Source: Rhodothermia bacterium (lineage in GTDB: Bacteria; Bacteroidota; Rhodothermia; Balneolales; Balneolaceae). Taken from it: a stretch of 64,000 bases of DNA. The stretch covers positions 372,001-436,000 of the forward strand of contig JAUICM010000001.1 in assembly GCA_030427885.1 (NCBI GenBank), given 5' to 3'. Below are positions 5,281 to 43,057 of the stretch, in pieces. The position numbers and the translations under genes are program-made. Below the pieces are notes generated by a model that saw only the letters and a list, made by a program, of their open reading frames with translations, had not been told where the DNA came from and made no database searches. Each line of letters begins with the position of its first letter. The first letter of the stretch is position 1.

Positions 5281-5294
5281 TGCACATTTTAATG

Positions 5295-5404
5295 CTTATT
5301 AAGAAAGACTGAGGGAATGGGCCCGTTGAAGTCTTGGCAACCACTCCAATTCCTGTTGGAAGAAGGTGCCAAATCCCACTCAGTACAATACTGAGAAAAA
5401 TAAG
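5295..5404 (+). ncRNA. SAM-I (S-box) riboswitch
   Basis: Aptamer core matches the SAM-I consensus: GAGGGAATGGGCCC at 5311-5324, TGAAG, then GGCAACC at 5336-5342 and GGTGCCAA at 5365-5372. P1 is CTTATT (5295-5300) with AATAAG (5399-5404). P3 is GGC-ACC with GGT-GCC, capped by TCCAA (5345-5349) with TTGGA (5356-5360). P4 is CTCAGTA (5379-5385) with TACTGAG (5389-5395). It lies directly before the split metH genes, which make methionine, the precursor of SAM, so it should switch the operon off when SAM is plentiful. There is no T-run after the aptamer, which points to control of translation rather than transcription termination. Confidence 0.93.
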
Positions 5405-5458
5405 TGAACTTTTCCTTTCACTCTTTGTTAATAGGCTAATCAATTTCTACAGAGTGGA
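5403..5458 (+). promoter_or_regulatory. proposed translational expression platform of the SAM riboswitch
   Basis: TTCACTCT at 5417-5424 can pair with AGAGTGGA at 5451-5458 (one G-U pair), burying the GTG start codon at 5454. The same segment (TTCACT, 5417-5422) can instead pair with AGTGAA at 5403-5408, whose first two bases belong to the 3' strand of P1. With SAM bound, P1 holds 5403-5404 and the start-codon hairpin is free to form (off); without SAM the alternative pairing opens the start (on). The stems are short (6-8 pairs), so this is an inference from complementarity only. Confidence 0.45.
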
Positions 5459-32596: not shown

Positions 32597-34188
32597 TAGT
32601 CTACCACCAGAATTTTACCGTTCACTGTTTTACCGGAACTCTCAACGATGTAAAAATAGGTGCCATTGGCTACTTTCCTGCTATGGTCATCATATCCGTC
32701 CCAGATCGCTTCGTAATCACCCGAAGTAAGACTTTTGCTATCCAGTTCCCGTATAAGATTCATTCCAAAATCAAATACCCTCACCTTAACATTTCCAGGG
32801 TCACTTACTTTGAATCTGATGCGGACAATGTCATGTTCATAGGGTGAAAATGGATTGGGGTATGCATATGCATCAACTGTTTTAGCCTCAGGGTCAAAAG
32901 TATTTCCCCCCGAAAGCGGAAAATTCAATCTTGTTATTTCCCAGGTGTTTCCAAGGTCATCAGTTGAGATAATACCGTCGGTAGTTCCAATCCATACACG
33001 CTCGGTTCCGGCTCCGGCTCCTTCAAATTGTACCGATTCTCTTAACACCTGGTTTGGTGTTTTGATGCGAGGTGATTTAATCCAGCTATCACCTCCATCC
33101 CTGGAAATAAACAGGCCACTTTCACCTGCCGCAAATACATAGCCATCTTTGAATGTAAGGGCATTGATCTTTTCACCAATAAGTCTTTGTTCAAAAGTCT
33201 GACCACCATCCTCTGTGAATACCAGTCCATAACTATCCTGACCTGCATACACTGAGTTTGAACTTTCAGCCAGCCAGTTTGTCATCCAGACCCTGTTGGT
33301 TGTGGTATCCTCGTCAATCTCAATGATCCAGCGGGCCAGAAGGCCGTTTGGGTCGGCACTAAAGTTTACATTTCTCCATTCAATACTGTCGATGGGAGCT
33401 GTCAATGCATTCTCGGAGATATTGATGCCGCCGGCACTTCCGAACCAAACCCTGTCTTTGGAGTCTACAAACACCGCAAAACCTTTCAGGTTATCATCTT
33501 CCACGCTGTCATACACATTCTCATCCTCAACACAGCTGCCATTTTCAACCTCAATGCAATTGATCCAGTAGTAATCATTCCGGCTTGGGGTTAGAAGGGA
33601 TTCACCGAATGGAGGAAGTACCACACGTTCCCAGGTTTGACCCAGATCGGTACTTCGGAGGAGTCCGGATGCCCAATTTGCAGAAAACAAAACCTCACCC
33701 CTGAAGGCGACAGAATAGGGAGGAGATTGCTCCGGTACAATGATTCGTTTGCGGTTATAAGTTGTTCCACCATAAACAAAAGTTGTGTCTTCATCTATGC
33801 GGTTATCCAGGAGGAAATCGCTGAAATACCAATTATCACCGCCATCGGTAGAGATATAATAGCCATATGCTGCGGGAACGGAGCCGGCCACTTCGGATAC
33901 CGAACTAAAACCAAGCCCTGCAAAAACGGTATCGTTATTCACAGCGATTGAAAATGCTCTTCCTACGCCATTATCAATGCTATCCAGACCGGAAGGGTAG
34001 ATCCAGTCGGGGCTGTTGTCAATATTTCTGTTCAAAGAGGGACTGATCCAAACCGTATCACCTGTTACTGCTACCGTAGAAACCCCATTCTGGCGGATGC
34101 TGTTAAACCGTGATTCTATGGGACCAACGACCTGGGCAGAAACTGTTCCTGTAATAAAAATGATAGTCAGAAGTACTTTTTTCATCAA
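32596..34188 (-). CDS. secreted BNR-repeat protein with T9SS-type C-terminal domain
   Basis: 530 aa. Signal peptide MMKKVLLTIIFITGTVSAQ. Five BNR/sialidase-like Asp boxes are visible (STDGGDNWYF, STDLGQTWER, TEDGGQTFEQ, SRDGGDSWIK, TDDLGNTWEI), indicating a beta-propeller. The last 90 residues (YPNPFSPYEHDIVR to VNGKILVVD) form a FlgD-Ig/T9SS type A sorting-like domain, the usual tag for export and surface attachment through PorV. Start overlaps the upstream lipoprotein stop by 4 bases. Confidence 0.85.
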   Translation of the reverse strand: MMKKVLLTIIFITGTVSAQVVGPIESRFNSIRQNGVSTVAVTGDTVWISPSLNRNIDNSPDWIYPSGLDSIDNGVGRAFSIAVNNDTVFAGLGFSSVSEVAGSVPAAYGYYISTDGGDNWYFSDFLLDNRIDEDTTFVYGGTTYNRKRIIVPEQSPPYSVAFRGEVLFSANWASGLLRSTDLGQTWERVVLPPFGESLLTPSRNDYYWINCIEVENGSCVEDENVYDSVEDDNLKGFAVFVDSKDRVWFGSAGGINISENALTAPIDSIEWRNVNFSADPNGLLARWIIEIDEDTTTNRVWMTNWLAESSNSVYAGQDSYGLVFTEDGGQTFEQRLIGEKINALTFKDGYVFAAGESGLFISRDGGDSWIKSPRIKTPNQVLRESVQFEGAGAGTERVWIGTTDGIISTDDLGNTWEITRLNFPLSGGNTFDPEAKTVDAYAYPNPFSPYEHDIVRIRFKVSDPGNVKVRVFDFGMNLIRELDSKSLTSGDYEAIWDGYDDHSRKVANGTYFYIVESSGKTVNGKILVVD

Positions 34189-34988
34189 TTACCCCGGATA
34201 TGAAATGTAGTTCTGAGAGTATCACTGTAGAGTCCACCCTTATCCAGTGCGAAAAATTCGATATCGTAATCTCTATCTATAATTCCACTATCCGGATTTC
34301 CAGGTACCCCATAAGACCAGGTGTAAATCTGATCATCTGCAGTTTCGTCTCCTAACGAAGAGCCATTATCTGACATTAAGAATGGTGACCCTTCAACTTC
34401 CCCAGAAGTTTGGTCTATAATTCTCAGAAATACTCGATCAATAGTGTTATCTCCGTCTGCATCTGTTACTGTTGCTGTAAACACAGCAAGCGTCTCGCCA
34501 GATGAAGGTCGGATAATAGTTCCCGGACTGGTAGTATCTGTAATTACTGGTCTATTATTTGATAATCCTTTTATAGAGATGGAGGTCTGGTAATAATTGC
34601 CTTGTGCTTCTTCGTCATACACATAGATTTCAACAAAATAGTCTTCGTATGATGTCGTAGTTGTCGATATCTGAAAATTACCAATATGTCCGAAATCTGT
34701 ATAAGTAAGAATATCCTCGGTTAGTATCATTTTTGTTTCCTTATTTCTAACCACAAAACGAGGTATATGCTCACCAAGATTATTGAACAGGGCAATTATA
34801 GAGAAATTAAGGGTGGTGTCCCGGAATCCGTCCGATGATTGAAATTCAACTGAGCCCGGAGATATAAGAGCTGTCTGAACCGATGGAATATCATCAGTCA
34901 GGTCTTTGGGAGAAGTAGTGGGGTCACAGCCTCCGATGAATACATATACTCCCAATACCAGGATGGGATAAAAGTGCTTACTAAACAA
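34185..34988 (-). CDS. lipoprotein with immunoglobulin-like domain
   Basis: 267 aa. Lipobox in VFIGGC (C21). An N-terminal beta domain and a C-terminal Ig/cadherin-like domain (TATVTDADGDNTIDRVFLRI; SDNGSSLGDETADD looks like a calcium-binding loop). The start is TTG 34988 with an AAGAAGG ribosome-binding site 8 bases upstream; no ATG is available in frame that keeps the signal peptide. First gene of the glycan/PorV-PorQ operon. Function unknown. Confidence 0.72.
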   Translation of the reverse strand: MFSKHFYPILVLGVYVFIGGCDPTTSPKDLTDDIPSVQTALISPGSVEFQSSDGFRDTTLNFSIIALFNNLGEHIPRFVVRNKETKMILTEDILTYTDFGHIGNFQISTTTTSYEDYFVEIYVYDEEAQGNYYQTSISIKGLSNNRPVITDTTSPGTIIRPSSGETLAVFTATVTDADGDNTIDRVFLRIIDQTSGEVEGSPFLMSDNGSSLGDETADDQIYTWSYGVPGNPDSGIIDRDYDIEFFALDKGGLYSDTLRTTFHIRGN

Positions 34989-35159: not shown

Positions 35160-35190
35160 TTGCTTTTAGAAAAGTGCCCGCCTATATTCG
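35160..35190 (+). promoter_or_regulatory. trp operon promoter (TTG-N20-TATATTCG)
   Basis: TTG at 35160-35162 and TATATTCG at 35183-35190 with 20 bases between them. The expected transcript start (about 35194) lies only a few bases before the leader-peptide ATG at 35198. The rest of 34989-35159 shows no gene and no other structure I can support. Confidence 0.5.
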
Positions 35191-35197
35191 ACCCGTT

Positions 35198-35251
35198 ATG
35201 AAAAACGCAACTCTACATACAAACAATTGGTGGTGGCCCCGGCTGACATAG
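35198..35251 (+). CDS. trpL: trp operon leader peptide
   Basis: A 17-residue open frame, MKNATLHTNNWWWPRLT, with three consecutive TGG (Trp) codons at 35228-35236 and a TAG stop, just before an attenuator hairpin and trpE. The position, size and Trp run are those of a ribosome-stalling leader peptide: low charged tRNA-Trp stalls the ribosome and favours readthrough. It has no visible ribosome-binding site and would start within about 5 bases of the predicted transcript start, so it may be translated as a leaderless message. Confidence 0.9.
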   Translation: MKNATLHTNNWWWPRLT

Positions 35252-35336
35252 CAGTGGGTTTTTTGCGTTCATATATGACATAATACACGACTTTTACACA
35301 TACCCACTGTTCCTACGGAAGAGTGGGTTTTTTTTT
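35237..35336 (+). promoter_or_regulatory. trp attenuator (antiterminator/terminator switch)
   Basis: Segment 2, CAGTGGGT (35252-35259), pairs with segment 3, ACCCACTG (35302-35309), as antiterminator. Segment 3 instead pairs with segment 4, AGTGGGT (35322-35328), as terminator. A weaker segment 1 (CCC 35237-35239 and CTG 35243-35245) could pair with segment 2 (GGG and CAG). A ribosome stalled on the Trp codons would cover segment 1 and let 2:3 form; one reaching the TAG covers 1 and 2 and lets 3:4 form. Confidence 0.85.
35302..35336 (+). terminator. trp attenuator terminator hairpin
   Basis: ACCCACT pairs with AGTGGGT, with an inner TTCC/GGAA stem and TAC loop, followed by nine T (35328-35336). 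It lies 22 bases before trpE. Confidence 0.92.
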
Positions 35337-35358: not shown

Positions 35359-36819
35359 ATGGATAAGAATCAGTTTTTAGAACTTAGTAAAAAGTACACG
35401 GCTGTCCCTGTTTACAGGAGATTACTCGCTGATGTCCTTACGCCAGTATCTTTGTTCCTGAATATTCGAGAAGAGGCAGAATACCCATTTCTTCTGGAAT
35501 CGGTGGAGGGTGGAGAGCAGCTTGCCAGGTATTCTTTTATCGGCAGAAATCCATACCAAAGGCTGATCTTTGATGGTAAACAAACCACACTTGAAAAAGA
35601 CGGAGCCTCTGATACAATTAGTGTTCCATATTTCGAGGAGCTTAAGAAACTTACCACGGCGTATTCAGAACCTTTTATCCCGGATCTGCCAAGATTAACT
35701 GGGGGAGCGGTTGGATTTTCAGCCTACGACACTTTCCGGTTGGTAGAGCATCTGCCGGATGTTCCTGAAGATGACCTGAATCTCCCGGAAGCGATCTGGG
35801 CTTTCTATGATGAGATCTTTGCTTTCGATCATGTAAAGCATCAGGTGGTATTGATCAAGACGGTATTTGTTGAAGAAGAGGAAGATCTTGAAGAGGCGTA
35901 TTCAAAAGTTCAGGATTCATTAGATGAAATGGAAGCAGCGGTCACCCGGACTGATTTCACCAAACGCGATTTCCAGATACACCCTGAATCACTCAAAAGT
36001 AATATGAAACAGGAGTACTTTGAAGAGATCGTTAAGAAGGGAAAAGATTACATTTACGAAGGGGATATTTTCCAGGTAGTATTGTCCCAACGCTTTGAGG
36101 CGGACATGGAGGGAGACTCTTTTATGTTGTATCGGGCACTGCGAATGGTGAATCCATCCCCATATCTTTTCTATCTGGATTTTTATGGGTTTACTATTGT
36201 TGGTTCATCGCCGGAAGTACTTGTGAGCGTTCAGAATAAGGAAGTCAGAGTATTGCCGATTGCAGGGACCAGACCTCGTGGAAAAACTCATGAGGAAGAC
36301 CTCGAATTAGAAGAAGATCTGAAGGCAGATCCCAAAGAAGTTGCAGAGCATATCATGCTGGTTGACCTGGGCCGGAATGATCTTTCCAGAGTTTGTAAGG
36401 CAGGAACTGTAAAGCTGGAACGAAACCAGGTGATAGAACGATATTCGCATGTGATGCACATTGTAAGCGATGTGGTCGGGCATCTGTCAGATGACCAAAC
36501 TTCCGTGGATGCTTTGATGCAATGTTTCCCTGCCGGAACAGTAAGTGGTGCCCCCAAGATCAGAGCCATGGAGATCATTGATGAGATGGAACCGACCAAG
36601 CGGGGTATCTATGCAGGAGCTGTTGGATATTTCGATTTTTCAGGAAATATGGATACCTGTATTGCCATCAGAACGATGGTTGTTACGGGGAATAAGGTGT
36701 ACATTCAGGCCGGTGCCGGAATAGTGGCGGACAGTGATCCAAAAAAAGAATTTGAAGAAACTCAAAATAAAGCCGGGGCCCTGGTTCAGGCATTAAGCAT
36801 AGCACTAGACATCAAATGA
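35359..36819 (+). CDS. trpE: anthranilate synthase component I
   Basis: 486 aa chorismate-utilising enzyme that makes anthranilate with TrpG. The LLESVEGGEQLARYSFIG segment near residue 30-50 contains the LLES tryptophan feedback site, and the C-terminal catalytic domain shows IAGTRPRGKT, LVDLGRNDLSRVC and FPAGTVSGAPKIRAMEII. Full length. First structural gene after the attenuator. Its stop overlaps trpS by 4 bases (ATGA). Confidence 0.96.
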   Translation: MDKNQFLELSKKYTAVPVYRRLLADVLTPVSLFLNIREEAEYPFLLESVEGGEQLARYSFIGRNPYQRLIFDGKQTTLEKDGASDTISVPYFEELKKLTTAYSEPFIPDLPRLTGGAVGFSAYDTFRLVEHLPDVPEDDLNLPEAIWAFYDEIFAFDHVKHQVVLIKTVFVEEEEDLEEAYSKVQDSLDEMEAAVTRTDFTKRDFQIHPESLKSNMKQEYFEEIVKKGKDYIYEGDIFQVVLSQRFEADMEGDSFMLYRALRMVNPSPYLFYLDFYGFTIVGSSPEVLVSVQNKEVRVLPIAGTRPRGKTHEEDLELEEDLKADPKEVAEHIMLVDLGRNDLSRVCKAGTVKLERNQVIERYSHVMHIVSDVVGHLSDDQTSVDALMQCFPAGTVSGAPKIRAMEIIDEMEPTKRGIYAGAVGYFDFSGNMDTCIAIRTMVVTGNKVYIQAGAGIVADSDPKKEFEETQNKAGALVQALSIALDIK

Positions 36820-37805
36820 CGACTAAGAAAAAAACGATACTATCAGGGATACAACCTTCCGGTAAGCTGCATATTGGGAATTATTTCGGAGCCATGAGGC
36901 AGCATATCGAGATGCAGGAAATGGGCGATTCCTTTTATTTTATTGCGAATTATCATTCCCTAACCTCTCTGAATGATGGGGAGACCTTATACCAGAACAC
37001 TATTGATATAACTTTGGATTACCTGGCACTGGGATTGGATCCTGATAAAGCTACCTTTTTTGCTCAGTCTGATGTGCCACAGGTTACAGAGTTAGCATGG
37101 ATGCTGGGAACTCTTGCCCCGGTGAGTATGATGGAAAAGGGTGTCTCTTATAAGGATAAGATCGCTGCGGGACTGAGTCCAAATATTGGATTATTCACTT
37201 ATCCGATCTTACAGGCTGCAGACATCCTTATATACCATTCAGATCTGGTTCCAGTTGGAGAAGACCAGAAGCAAAACATAGAAATTTGTCGTGATCTGGC
37301 TGGAAAATTTAACCGCGCTTTTGATGGTGAATACCTCAAAATACCGGAGGACTACATTGTGAAATCAGTTGCTGTAGTTCCGGGGACAGATGGAAGAAAA
37401 ATGAGTAAAAGCTATCAGAATACAATTCCGATCTTCGGAGAAGGAAAACCATTGAAAAAGACTGTGATGTCTATCCAAACGGATTCAACTCCACTCGAAG
37501 ATCCTAAAGACCCGGATACCGATAATGTCTTCGCATTGATCAAACTTTTTGCCGACAAAGAAACCCAGGATGAGATTGCAGCAAAATACAGAGCTGGTGG
37601 TTATGGCTATGGTCATGCGAAGAATGAATTACTGGGTCTGATCAAAGAATATTTTGGTGAGGCACTTGAAAAGAGAAAAGAACTCGAGAAAAACATCGAC
37701 TATGTGAAAGATGTTTTAAAGGAAGGTGGTAAGAAAGCCCGCGAACGTGCTGAATCAGTGATGGTACCTATCAGAGAAGTAACCGGAATATTCAGGAGTT
37801 TCTGA
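36816..37805 (+). CDS. trpS: tryptophanyl-tRNA synthetase
   Basis: 329 aa class I aminoacyl-tRNA synthetase that charges tRNA-Trp. HIGH motif as LHIGNYFGAMR at the N-terminus, KMSKS as GRKMSKSYQNT near residue 195. Its place inside the trp operon, between trpE and trpG with a 4-base overlap upstream and one base gap downstream, is unusual and puts the enzyme that sets the attenuator signal (charged tRNA-Trp) under the same control. Confidence 0.96.
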   Translation: MTTKKKTILSGIQPSGKLHIGNYFGAMRQHIEMQEMGDSFYFIANYHSLTSLNDGETLYQNTIDITLDYLALGLDPDKATFFAQSDVPQVTELAWMLGTLAPVSMMEKGVSYKDKIAAGLSPNIGLFTYPILQAADILIYHSDLVPVGEDQKQNIEICRDLAGKFNRAFDGEYLKIPEDYIVKSVAVVPGTDGRKMSKSYQNTIPIFGEGKPLKKTVMSIQTDSTPLEDPKDPDTDNVFALIKLFADKETQDEIAAKYRAGGYGYGHAKNELLGLIKEYFGEALEKRKELEKNIDYVKDVLKEGGKKARERAESVMVPIREVTGIFRSF

Positions 37806-37806
37806 T

Positions 37807-38367
37807 ATGGTTCTTATTATCGATAACTACGATTCCTTCACTTATAATCTTGTTCATTTGATTGCGGTGGAGACAGATGATTATAAAGTGATCAGAAATG
37901 ATGCGATGACGGTGGATGAGATCCGGGCGTTAAATCCTGATAAGATCCTTATTTCACCAGGTCCTGGTCGCCCGGTTGATGCAGGAGTTACGGAGGATGT
38001 AATCAGAGAATTAGGTTCTGAAATCCCGATTCTCGGGGTTTGTCTGGGTCACCAGGCAATTGGTGAAGTATTTGGGGCAGAAGTGGTTTACGCTCCCAGC
38101 TTAATGCATGGTAAGGTGTCTCAGGTTGAGCATGATGGTCGTTCAATTTTCAAAAATGTGGAACCGAATTTTACAGCAACCCGCTACCACTCACTAGTTC
38201 TTTCACCGGAAACGATACCTGAAGACCTTGAAATTACAGCCAGAACAGGAGAGGTGATAATGGGTGTGAGACATAAAAAATATCCGATAGAAGGTATTCA
38301 GTTTCACCCCGAGAGTATACTTACGGTGGAAGGACCTAAAATGATAACCAACTGGTTAAGGAAATAA
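37807..38367 (+). CDS. trpG: anthranilate synthase component II (glutamine amidotransferase)
   Basis: 186 aa class I glutaminase that supplies ammonia to TrpE. IDNYDSFTYNLVH at the start, the nucleophile elbow GVCLGHQAIGE, and the His-x-Glu pair in IQFHPESI. It could also serve aminodeoxychorismate synthase in folate synthesis, as single TrpG/PabA proteins do. Stop shares one base with trpD start (TAATG). Confidence 0.95.
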   Translation: MVLIIDNYDSFTYNLVHLIAVETDDYKVIRNDAMTVDEIRALNPDKILISPGPGRPVDAGVTEDVIRELGSEIPILGVCLGHQAIGEVFGAEVVYAPSLMHGKVSQVEHDGRSIFKNVEPNFTATRYHSLVLSPETIPEDLEITARTGEVIMGVRHKKYPIEGIQFHPESILTVEGPKMITNWLRK

Positions 38368-39395
38368 TGGATTTTAAAGACATTCTTGAAAAACTATCCT
38401 TTTCAGAAAATTTGTCAATGTCGGAGGCTGAAGCTTCTATGTTCATGATCATGAACGGTGAAGTGGGATCTGAACAGGTGGCCGGATTTCTCACTGCAAT
38501 GAGAATGAAAGGAGAAACGATCGAAGAACTCACCGGATTTGTGAAAGTAATGAGATCAAAGTCGGTGAAAGTTAATGTTGATGTATCAGGTGCTATTGAT
38601 CTGGTGGGTACAGGTGGAGATAAATCCGGTACTTTTAACATATCCACGGTTTCTTCTTTTGTGGTTGCCGGAGCAGGAGTTCCTGTTATCAAGCACGGAA
38701 ACAGAAGTGCCTCCAGCAAATGTGGTAGTGCAGATGTACTGGCCGAACTTGGTGCTAAGATCGAGCTGGACAATAAAGCAGTTGAGAAGGTGTACAATGA
38801 CGTTGGAATGGCCTTTATGTTTGCTCCTATGTTTCATCCGGCTATGAAATATGTAATGCCAGCCAGACGAGCACTTGCATTCAGGACCTTCTTCAATATC
38901 CTGGGACCAATGTGTAATCCGGCTGGTGTAAAACGATACGTTATCGGTGCTTTCAGTAAAGATGTTGCAAAGAAAATGATCAAGATATTAGCAAATCTGG
39001 ATACGGAGTTTGCTTATACGTTCAATTCTCTGGATGGGCTTGATGAGGTAAGCCTTACCGCTGATGCTGAGATCTTTGAATTGCGGGAAAGCCTGGTTTC
39101 TACTGCATTCACTTTTGCACCGGAAAGTCTTGGATTTGAACGTGTGAACATGGATGAACTCATGGGAGGAGATGCCGCCGAAAATGCAGGTATTCTCACT
39201 AATATCCTTGATAACAAAGCTACTGAAGCACAAAAGAATATCATTTTACTGAATACCAGTTTCGCAATTCAGGCTTCAGGAAAAGTGGATACTTTGAAAG
39301 AAGCCAGGAATATGGCAGTTGAAAGTATCGAGTCTGGGAAAGCAAGAAAAGTATTCGATAACTTTGTGGAAGCAACTAACAGTGTCGGAGCCTGA
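38367..39395 (+). CDS. trpD: anthranilate phosphoribosyltransferase
   Basis: 342 aa, joins anthranilate to PRPP. GTGGDKSGTFNIST (PRPP site), KHGNRSASSKCGSADVLAELG, and the hinge-domain VKRYVIGAFS. Full family length. Four bases before trpC. Confidence 0.95.
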   Translation: MDFKDILEKLSFSENLSMSEAEASMFMIMNGEVGSEQVAGFLTAMRMKGETIEELTGFVKVMRSKSVKVNVDVSGAIDLVGTGGDKSGTFNISTVSSFVVAGAGVPVIKHGNRSASSKCGSADVLAELGAKIELDNKAVEKVYNDVGMAFMFAPMFHPAMKYVMPARRALAFRTFFNILGPMCNPAGVKRYVIGAFSKDVAKKMIKILANLDTEFAYTFNSLDGLDEVSLTADAEIFELRESLVSTAFTFAPESLGFERVNMDELMGGDAAENAGILTNILDNKATEAQKNIILLNTSFAIQASGKVDTLKEARNMAVESIESGKARKVFDNFVEATNSVGA

Positions 39396-39398
39396 GGG

Positions 39399-40214
39399 AT
39401 GAGTACCATTCTGGATAAAATAGTGGTTCAGACTTCAGAAGATCTCTCTAAAAGAAAAAAAGAGATATCCTTCAACGACCTGCATTCACTGGAAGGATTT
39501 GAAAAGGAAAGGATCAATTTCAAAAAAGCCCTGCAGACTGAAAGGGTTTCAATTATTGCCGAAGTAAAGAAAGCGTCTCCATCCAAAGGGATCATCAGAC
39601 CCGATTTTGATCCTGTTGATATAGCATTACGTTATGAAGACGGCGGAGCTTCGGCCATATCGGTTCTCACGGATAAACCGTTCTTCAAGGGTGATCTGGA
39701 ATATTTGTCGGGGGTATCTAAAAGAGTGCAGGTGCCGGTGTTGAGAAAAGATTTCATTATTGATCCGTTTCAAATCAAAGAAGCCCGCGCATACGGTGCT
39801 GATGCCGTTCTGATCATTGTGGCGATCACTGATGGTTCCCAAATAAATGAATTACTTGCTGCAGCAAAAGAGTTTGAACTCACAGCGCTTGTTGAATGTT
39901 ATGGTCAGGAAGATTTTGACCGCATCGACTTCAGTAAAGTGGATGTTCTGGGAGTTAATAACAGAGATCTGAGGAATTTTGAAGTAGATGTACATCGCGG
40001 AGTTTCAATTTTGAAACAGGCACCTGATGAAACGGTTTTGGTTTCAGAAAGTGGATTATCCTCTGGTGAGGACATAGCCTTATTACGAAGAAAAGGAATA
40101 CACTCAGCTCTGATAGGTGAATACTTTATGAGACAATCCGACCCGGGAAAGGCGGTATCAGAGTTGTTGGAACAGGGAGAAGAAGCATTTGAAAGGAGTT
40201 TAGCCAATGAATGA
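39399..40214 (+). CDS. trpC: indole-3-glycerol phosphate synthase
   Basis: 271 aa (beta/alpha)8 enzyme. IIAEVKKASPSKGIIRPDFDP holds the catalytic Lys and substrate loop; VLRKDFIIDPFQI and GVNNRDLRNFEVD are the other active-site strands; VSESGLSSGEDI binds phosphate. Not fused to TrpF, which overlaps it by 8 bases. Confidence 0.96.
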   Translation: MSTILDKIVVQTSEDLSKRKKEISFNDLHSLEGFEKERINFKKALQTERVSIIAEVKKASPSKGIIRPDFDPVDIALRYEDGGASAISVLTDKPFFKGDLEYLSGVSKRVQVPVLRKDFIIDPFQIKEARAYGADAVLIIVAITDGSQINELLAAAKEFELTALVECYGQEDFDRIDFSKVDVLGVNNRDLRNFEVDVHRGVSILKQAPDETVLVSESGLSSGEDIALLRRKGIHSALIGEYFMRQSDPGKAVSELLEQGEEAFERSLANE

Positions 40215-40851
40215 TTATACAAAAGTAAAGATCTGTGGAATAACCAATCTTGGCGACGCCCGTTTTGCAGCTGGCGCTATGGCTGACTACCTGGGATTCA
40301 TTTTTTATGATAAAAGTCCAAGATATATCGATCCGGCTGAAGCGGGAGCAATGATAAACTGGATCGAAGGACCTGAGAAAGTGGGTGTTTTTGTAAACCA
40401 ACCACTTGACGACGTTAATCGAATTGCAAAAGAAACCGGTCTGGATATTGTTCAACTACACGGGGATGAAACACCTGAATACTGCCAACTAGTGGATAAG
40501 CGGGTCATTAAAGTAATTCACATAACTCCGGACACAACAGCTGATGAACTGAAAACAAAGATCAACCTGTATGATGAAGTTGCCGATTTCCTGCTTTTTG
40601 ATACAAAGATAGATGGACTTTGGGGTGGGACCGGGGAGACATTCGACTGGAATTTGTTGAAAGATATCACCGGAGACACTCCATTTTTTCTTTCTGGAGG
40701 TTTGAATCCCAATAATGTAAAAGAGGCCATTGAAACCGTTCAACCGTATGCTGTTGATCTTTCCAGTGGCCTGGAAGAAAAACCGGGACTCAAAGATTTT
40801 GGTAAAATCGAACTCCTGATGGAAGCAATGAGAGCTGTTAATGACTATTAA
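40207..40851 (+). CDS. trpF: phosphoribosylanthranilate isomerase
   Basis: 214 aa. VKICGITN with the catalytic Cys at the N-terminus, ADYLGFIFYDKSPRYI, GVFVNQ, VQLHGDE, LFDTKIDGLWGGTGETFDW (catalytic Asp and phosphate strand), LSGGLNPNNVKEAI and VDLSSGLE. Typical length. Followed by a 102-base gap with a palindromic repeat before trpB. Confidence 0.96.
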   Translation: MNDYTKVKICGITNLGDARFAAGAMADYLGFIFYDKSPRYIDPAEAGAMINWIEGPEKVGVFVNQPLDDVNRIAKETGLDIVQLHGDETPEYCQLVDKRVIKVIHITPDTTADELKTKINLYDEVADFLLFDTKIDGLWGGTGETFDWNLLKDITGDTPFFLSGGLNPNNVKEAIETVQPYAVDLSSGLEEKPGLKDFGKIELLMEAMRAVNDY

Positions 40852-40953: not shown

Positions 40954-42153
40954 ATGAATACTGAACTAAAAACAACATACGACCAACCCAATGCCCGGGG
41001 CTACTTCGGTAAGTACGGAGGAAAGTTCGTTCCGGAGATCCTGATACCTGTTATTTCAGCCTTGGAAGAGGAATACAATACAGCCAAAGATGATCCGGAG
41101 TTTGTGGCAGAGTACCACCAACTACTTGAAGAGTATGTGGGGCGGCCTACAAAACTTACCTTTGCAGATAAACTCACAGCTCATTACGGTAAAGCTAAGA
41201 TCTATCTGAAAAGAGAAGATCTTTGTCATACCGGAGCGCATAAGATCAATAACGCGATTGGTCAGATTCTGTTGGCCAGAAGAATGGGTAAGACCAGAAT
41301 CATAGCAGAGACAGGTGCAGGTCAGCATGGTGTAGCTACAGCTACAGCTTGCGCTAAATTTGGTTTGAAATGTATTGTATATATGGGTGCTGAAGATATG
41401 GAGCGCCAAAAGTTGAATGTGGATCGTATGCACCTTCTTGGGGCTGAAGTAAGAAGTGTGGAAAGTGGTTCCAAAACACTGAAGGATGCAACGAACGAAG
41501 CGATCAGAGACTGGGTGAGTAATCCCGACGACACTTTTTATATCATTGGATCGGTAGTAGGTCCACATCCGTACCCGATGATGGTTCGTAATTTTCACCG
41601 TGTAATTGGAGATGAAGCAAAGAAACAGATATTGGAAGCTGAAGGCCGGCTACCAGATTATCTGCTTGCTTGTGTAGGCGGTGGGTCTAATGCAATGGGG
41701 CTTTTTTATCCGTTCATGGATGATGATGTGAAGATCATTGGAATTGAAGCTGCCGGTTTCGGGGTAGATTCTGGTAAGACTGCCGCAACCATCACAAAAG
41801 GTACTCCGGGAATTCTGCATGGCTCGATGAGTTATCTGCTGCATGACCAAAATGGCCAGATCGAACTGGCTCATTCTATTAGCGCCGGGCTGGATTATCC
41901 GGGCATTGGTCCTGAGCATTCGTTTCTGCATGATTCAAAACGGGTAGAATATTATGCTGTGACCGATGATGAAGCGATGGAGGCATTGAAGCTTCTGTCG
42001 AAGAAAGAAGGAATTATTCCGGCTTTGGAATCCGCACATGCTTTTGCCTGGTTGGAAAATCTTATGCCTCAAACCAAGGAAGGAGAGATAATTATTGTGA
42101 ATCTTTCCGGACGTGGCGATAAGGATATGAAGACGATCTCGGAGAATTTATAA
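40954..42153 (+). CDS. trpB: tryptophan synthase beta chain
   Basis: 399 aa PLP enzyme that joins indole and serine. PLP lysine K97 in [24 protein letters not shown], and the phosphate loop GGGSNAMG. A standard TrpB1, which fits a nearby trpA. It is bounded on both sides by palindromic intergenic repeats, unlike any other gene in the cluster. Confidence 0.97.
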
Positions 42154-42259: not shown

Positions 42260-43057
42260 ATGAACAGAATAACACAGAAATTCAGAGATAAGGCTCCTGA
42301 CGAAAAACTAATGAGCCTCTTTTTAACAGCCGGTTTCCCTGATCTCGACTCAACGGTAGATCTTGTATTGGGTTTTGAGAAAAACGGAGCAGATCTCATC
42401 GAGCTAGGAATTCCATTCAGCGACCCTTTGGCTGACGGGCCAACGATCCAATACTCCAGCGATATCGCAATCAGTAATGGAATTACCATGGATAAGATCT
42501 TTGAGATGGTAGCTGGTATCAGAGAAAAATCTGAGATTCCGATCATATTAATGGGATATATGAATCCGGTGCTGAGATATGGAGTAGAGGCTTTTTGTAA
42601 GAAGGCTGCTGCCGTGGGAGTTGACGGCCTGATACTGCCTGATATCCCGGTTGAAGAAAGTGCATTGATCGATGAATTTGCATCCGAGGCGGGACTTTCA
42701 ATGGTGTATCTGGTAGCTCCGAATACGGCTGATGAACGAATGCAGCTTGCTGATCAGAAATCGGGTGGCTTTGTGTACTGTGTTTCAGTGACAGGAGTAA
42801 CCGGAGCCCGTTCAGGAGATGAGGTATCGAGCTCTGTTTCGAAGTTCATTCAGCGAGTCCGTACCAACGTAACAATAAATCCGGTGATGGTTGGTTTTGG
42901 AATCAGGTCGCACGAGGACGCTCAGGATATCGCATCAAATGCCGATGGTTTTATCGTTGGAAGTGCCTTAATTGATGTGATGAAAAATTCATATCCGGAA
43001 GAAGGCTGGAAACAGGCAGTTTTTTCTTTCGTACATTCATTGAAATTTGGAAAATAA
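42260..43057 (+). CDS. trpA: tryptophan synthase alpha chain
   Basis: 265 aa (beta/alpha)8 subunit that releases indole from indole-3-glycerol phosphate. Catalytic Glu in DLIELGIPFSDPLADGPTIQ, catalytic Asp in VDGLILPDIPVEE, and YCVSVTGVTGAR plus VGFGIRSHEDA phosphate strands. Full length. Next gene follows after 7 bases. Confidence 0.96.
   Translation: MNRITQKFRDKAPDEKLMSLFLTAGFPDLDSTVDLVLGFEKNGADLIELGIPFSDPLADGPTIQYSSDIAISNGITMDKIFEMVAGIREKSEIPIILMGYMNPVLRYGVEAFCKKAAAVGVDGLILPDIPVEESALIDEFASEAGLSMVYLVAPNTADERMQLADQKSGGFVYCVSVTGVTGARSGDEVSSSVSKFIQRVRTNVTINPVMVGFGIRSHEDAQDIASNADGFIVGSALIDVMKNSYPEEGWKQAVFSFVHSLKFGK

Follow-up and report, generated by a model that had tools for sequence, protein, structure and literature searches.

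The region preceding the tryptophan biosynthesis genes of this Balneolaceae genome is, at the level of its sequence, a ribosome-mediated trp attenuator, and its leader peptide TrpL is probably translated from a leaderless or near-leaderless transcript (5'UTR of 0-5 nt), a reading to which a probability of about 0.85 is assigned. Transcripts with 5'UTRs of up to 5 nt have been counted as leaderless in published dRNA-seq work (PMC5784534). The leader is real and well formed, and it represents a known mechanism that is newly found here and widely conserved in the order Balneolales. The DNA analysed (the window, 64,000 nucleotides) spans positions 372001-436000 of contig C2 in a 4.15 Mb genome, and the named relatives of its TrpE protein are from Balneolaceae (Gracilimonas, Balneola and related MAGs).

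All the elements described below are located on the forward strand. The trpL open reading frame (35198-35251; MKNATLHTNNWWWPRLT), recognised from the sequence and its homologues, starts with the ATG at 35198 and ends with a TAG stop codon at 35249-35251. Three tandem Trp codons, the control codons, occupy positions 35228-35236 (TGGTGGTGG), and this WWW or a WW is conserved in most Balneolales leaders. According to the folding prediction, segment 1 (35239-35249) can pair with strand 2 to form a protector 1:2 hairpin with a predicted energy of -8.3 kcal/mol. Strand 2 (35250-35259; AGCAGTGGGT), supported by covariation in 37 sequences, is the 5' half of the 2:3 antiterminator, strand 3 (35302-35313; ACCCACTGTTCC), also supported by covariation, is common to antiterminator and terminator, and strand 4 (35317-35328; GGAAGAGTGGGT), identified by both covariation and terminator prediction, is the 3' half of the 3:4 terminator, which is followed in the sequence by the U-tract of the intrinsic terminator (35328-35336). 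An earlier note on this DNA had placed the leader frame and both helices inside 35160-35336, with correct coordinates and frame. The leader RNA is predicted to fold into a more stable structure than its shuffled versions (z -2.8).

The upstream regions of trpE from Balneolales were compared, and most of them contain an open reading frame of 15-26 codons bearing WW or WWW, located 138-353 nt 5' of trpE. Covariation was analysed in an alignment of 37 distinct Balneolales leaders extending from the Trp codons through the U-tract. For the 2:3 antiterminator, 84.6% of the alignment cells were paired, six of the ten pairs had changed on both sides, and the covariation score was 0.352, versus at most 0.099 when the helix was slid along the alignment. 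The 3:4 terminator was paired in 91.9% of the cells, with a covariation score of 0.459 versus at most 0.149 in the slid versions. One alignment column carries A or G in strand 3, with the matching U or C in both strands 2 and 4. When compared to shuffled sequences, the 2:3 helix gave a median z of -4.2, and the 1:2 protector, which is weak in some species, a median z of -2.28, with values below -1 in 31 of the 37 leaders. Between the last Trp codon and strand 2 lie 8-18 nt, and the first base of the stop codon falls at -1 to +21 relative to the start of this strand, so that a ribosome stalled at the Trp codons would leave strand 2 free and a ribosome at the stop codon would cover it. Thus, a Trp-codon reading frame, mutually exclusive 2:3 and 3:4 helices, a spacing adjusted to the ribosome and a 1:2 protector, which define a ribosome-mediated attenuator, are found together in this region. 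The classic trp attenuator with a WWW leader described in the earlier note is therefore strongly supported, with covariation of both competing helices and a conserved geometry, and the alignment of related genomes that had been suggested as a check has revealed 37 homologues that keep the attenuator with compensatory changes.

A covariance model (R1) built from the 37-leader alignment found one strong match per genome, located immediately 5' of trpE. The search for a second trp-attenuated operon with this model yielded weak matches only (for example in G000:C4, 28.8 bits), which were taken as ordinary terminators.

A decaying or constitutive terminator accompanied by a chance small open reading frame, with no response to tryptophan, would find a precedent in one genus of the order (g5; L014, L016 and L022), which has promoter and terminator without Trp codons. 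Against this, the tandem Trp codons, the covariation of both competing helices and the fixed geometry are present here and in most of the order, and make such a reading extremely improbable for the window. In genus g5 itself, the promoter and the terminator hairpin are retained 5' of trpE but no leader with Trp codons can be recognised, and the Trp sensor seems to have been lost in nature.

In the mechanism proposed for the attenuator, RNA polymerase would start at, or a few bases from, the trpL AUG, and the ribosome would load directly on the 5' end of the leader RNA. When charged tRNA-Trp is scarce, the ribosome would stall on the WWW codons and mask segment 1, leaving strand 2 free to form the 2:3 antiterminator and allowing readthrough into trpE-trpS-trpGDCFBA. 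With plentiful charged tRNA-Trp, the ribosome would reach the stop codon and cover strand 2, so that the 3:4 hairpin would form and transcription would terminate. If the leader is not translated, the 1:2 and 3:4 hairpins would form, with termination as the expected outcome too. The response of the attenuator to tryptophan is likewise what its architecture predicts.

A promoter has been located immediately before the leader, with a -35 element TTGCTT at 35160-35165, whose TTG is conserved at N17 before TANNTT in the homologous leaders, and a -10 element TATATT at 35183-35188, which is separated by 9 nt from the leader ATG, within the spacing of 5-11 nt conserved in the homologues. The spacer between both elements is 17 nt, and the 9 nt between the -10 element and the ATG at 35198 are CGACCCGTT. 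The discriminator between the -10 element and position +1 usually comprises 6-8 nt, so the transcript is predicted to start at about 35194-35198, leaving a 5'UTR of 0-4 nt before the ATG. The next gene on the 5' side (34185-34988) points away from the trp operon, which makes read-in from upstream unlikely.

The leader could instead belong to a classical attenuator with a true promoter further upstream, translation being initiated on an AT-rich 5'UTR devoid of a Shine-Dalgarno (SD) sequence, as in most genes of Bacteroidota. Ordinary mRNAs of this phylum indeed lack an SD sequence and have median 5'UTR lengths of 24-32 nt (PMC7366714; PMC9723704; PMC3155529), and the promoter at 35160/35183 was not listed by a simple sigma-70 consensus scan. 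The hexamers are imperfect, which explains their omission by the scanner and means that the support for this promoter comes from its conservation. This conservation is what makes an upstream promoter unlikely, because the distance between the box and the start codon is fixed across deeply diverged genomes, and a promoter free to lie anywhere upstream would not keep a spacing of 5-11 nt. Of 38 distinct leaders, 36 carry the motif TTGNNN-N17-TANNTT with its 3' end 5-10 nt from the start codon that had been chosen, compared with about 0.03 such cases expected in total from the upstream background. None of these 38 leaders has anything resembling an SD sequence in the interval from -20 to -5 relative to the leader start. 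The start codons were also chosen independently by a rule that ignores the promoter (the closest ATG that is separated from the Trp run by seven codons or more, or GTG/TTG if there is no ATG), with spacers of 16-19 nt allowed in the promoter. With this rule, 52 of 60 Balneolales leaders carry a TTG-TANNTT box 5-11 nt 5' of the start, a background of 0.0016 per locus corresponding to about 0.1 expected in 60, and the remaining eight include five leaders (L127, L019, L029, L048 and L049) that fit with an earlier in-frame ATG. In 310 kb of the window's own genome, TTG-N17-TANNTT was found 5-9 nt before the first ATG in only one of 190 open reading frames, a background of low power given that just seven such promoters lie within 150 nt 5' of any reading frame. 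The leaderless reading of trpL, which had been put forward with a transcript start about 4 bases before the ATG, is thus strongly favoured by the comparative data, as the promoter-to-start spacing is conserved. The leader ATG of sister species is replaced by TTG in L002 and by GTG in L023, and at that position L097 has apparently GTC (no recognisable start).

Leaderless trp leader peptides have precedents in other phyla. In the alphaproteobacterium Sinorhizobium meliloti, the trpL RNA starts at the ATG and, as proposed here, a leaderless trp leader peptide located 5' of trpE mediates ribosome-dependent attenuation, although the target is trpE(G) and trans roles of both the RNA (rnTrpL) and the peptide have been reported there (PMC7298713). 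The released leader of the Balneolaceae genome might also act in trans, either through its peptide or as an RNA of about 140 nt produced by termination, similarly to the rnTrpL and peTrpL regulators of S. meliloti, whose anatomy, a leaderless trpL released by termination, is the same and for which such functions have been described (PMC7298713). However, the Balneolales leader peptide is poorly conserved in length and C-terminus outside the Trp run, so a conserved function of the peptide is unlikely, and a trans-acting role, which is considered improbable, would be compatible with attenuation rather than exclusive of it.

In Streptomyces lividans, TrpL1, TrpL2, LeuL and IlvL are leaderless attenuator peptides; the leaders of trpE (trpL1) and trpS (trpL2) resemble the one described here in combining a leaderless peptide, MFAHSTRNWWWTAHPAAH, containing WWW with a terminator, and trpS is also subjected to Trp attenuation (PMC8079986). 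In Corynebacterium diphtheriae, the transcription start site of the ilvB leader coincides with the start of the leader (PMC5784534). The documented cases of S. meliloti and S. lividans make leaderless attenuator peptides a known kind, and the suggestion in the earlier note that attenuation on such a peptide would be a distinct variant of the mechanism is therefore not supported. The Rfam family Trp_leader (RF00513) shares with this region a Trp leader peptide and alternative hairpins, and matched positions 35222-35336 with 20.2 bits (E 0.07), far below its gathering score of 41 bits. In this region the Rfam scan gave only sub-threshold matches, and a T-box, a TRAP-type leader or another known leader was accordingly discarded. 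Mycobacterial leaderless open reading frames with poly-Cys codons reportedly act as attenuators, in work from 2020 attributed to Canestrari; they are also leaderless amino-acid-sensing small reading frames placed 5' of an operon, but they sense cysteine. They are not known to work through a classic terminator switch of the 2:3/3:4 type.

Eight genes follow the attenuator in the order trpE-trpS-trpG-trpD-trpC-trpF-trpB-trpA, each one scoring over its own NCBIfam cut-off: trpE, encoding anthranilate synthase component I (35359-36819; TIGR00564, 568 bits), trpS, encoding tryptophanyl-tRNA synthetase (36816-37805; TIGR00233), trpG (37807-38367; TIGR00566), trpD (38367-39395; TIGR01245), trpC (39399-40214; NF001377), trpF (40207-40851; NF002298), trpB (40954-42153; TIGR00263) and trpA (42260-43057; TIGR00262). 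The trpS gene was the sole match found for a tryptophanyl-tRNA synthetase (TrpRS) gene in the window's own genome, and it is located directly 3' of trpE in most relatives too. Other weak trpS-like matches in the relatives (30-40% identity, E about 1e-6 or worse) were set aside as presumed TyrRS genes. Since the attenuator would sense the charging of tRNA-Trp, the location of trpS under its control would close a feedback loop, in which the sole TrpRS gene found is part of a circuit responding to what its enzyme makes, charged tRNA-Trp. S. lividans reaches this feedback by a second leader at trpS, its trpE and trpS genes being separate monocistronic units with their own leaders, whereas in the Balneolaceae genome trpS lies inside the operon and a single attenuator precedes trpE-trpS-trpGDCFBA.

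Leaders with runs of Trp codons and a matching promoter layout are not confined to Balneolales. Within the class, further orders have them (MRHVAYHSAHYFGWWWFSPAAVGRARA, with a gap of 10, is one such leader), and so do further classes of the phylum (MINSKKHGFNSIWFWWWSNP, with a gap of 6, is another); their U-tracts are placed 82-112 nt 3' of the Trp run. No Trp leader was found in 21 of the other-class genomes examined. Poly-His leaders are present 5' of hisG in Balneolales, and in 17 of 21 of them TANNTT ends 4-11 nt before the start codon, with 0.055 expected for each. The poly-His leader of the window's own genome, also 5' of hisG (L239, in G000:C10; VNLDNLHTAHHPHHGIHHGHHRVH), has a GTG start codon 6 nt 3' of TATATT; it is not followed by any evident strong intrinsic terminator, and Rho-dependent termination or translational regulation may therefore apply. 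In the upstream regions of pheA no consistent poly-Phe leader was found.

For attenuation to work, the emerging leader must be occupied by a ribosome by the time RNA polymerase gets to the terminator. In Bacteroidota SD-directed initiation is largely absent and leaderless mRNAs are rare (about 4-6%), yet the trp and his leaders start right behind the -10 box. The chances appear evenly balanced that, in Bacteroidota sensu GTDB (Balneolales together with other orders of its class and some of the other classes), the attenuator leaders, at least those of trp and his, are systematically leaderless while ordinary genes are not, and that leaderless initiation synchronises ribosome loading with the advance of RNA polymerase. 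These leaders would be a clear example, open to testing, of a specific role played by leaderless initiation in this phylum, in which 5'UTRs under 10 nt have been described for 3.7% of the mRNAs of Bacteroides thetaiotaomicron (PMC7366714) and 5.5% of the mRNAs of Flavobacterium psychrophilum are leaderless (PMC9723704). For F. psychrophilum, a member of Bacteroidetes, it has been proposed that amino acid operons are subject to attenuation (PMC9723704). The literature search retrieved no paper on attenuators in Balneola and no description of a leaderless design in Bacteroidota/Balneolota or of its spread over trp and his operons, which is weak evidence of novelty as subscription papers fell mostly outside the search. 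Elsewhere in the window, a SAM riboswitch was identified at positions 5293-5406 (RF00162, 87.6 bits).
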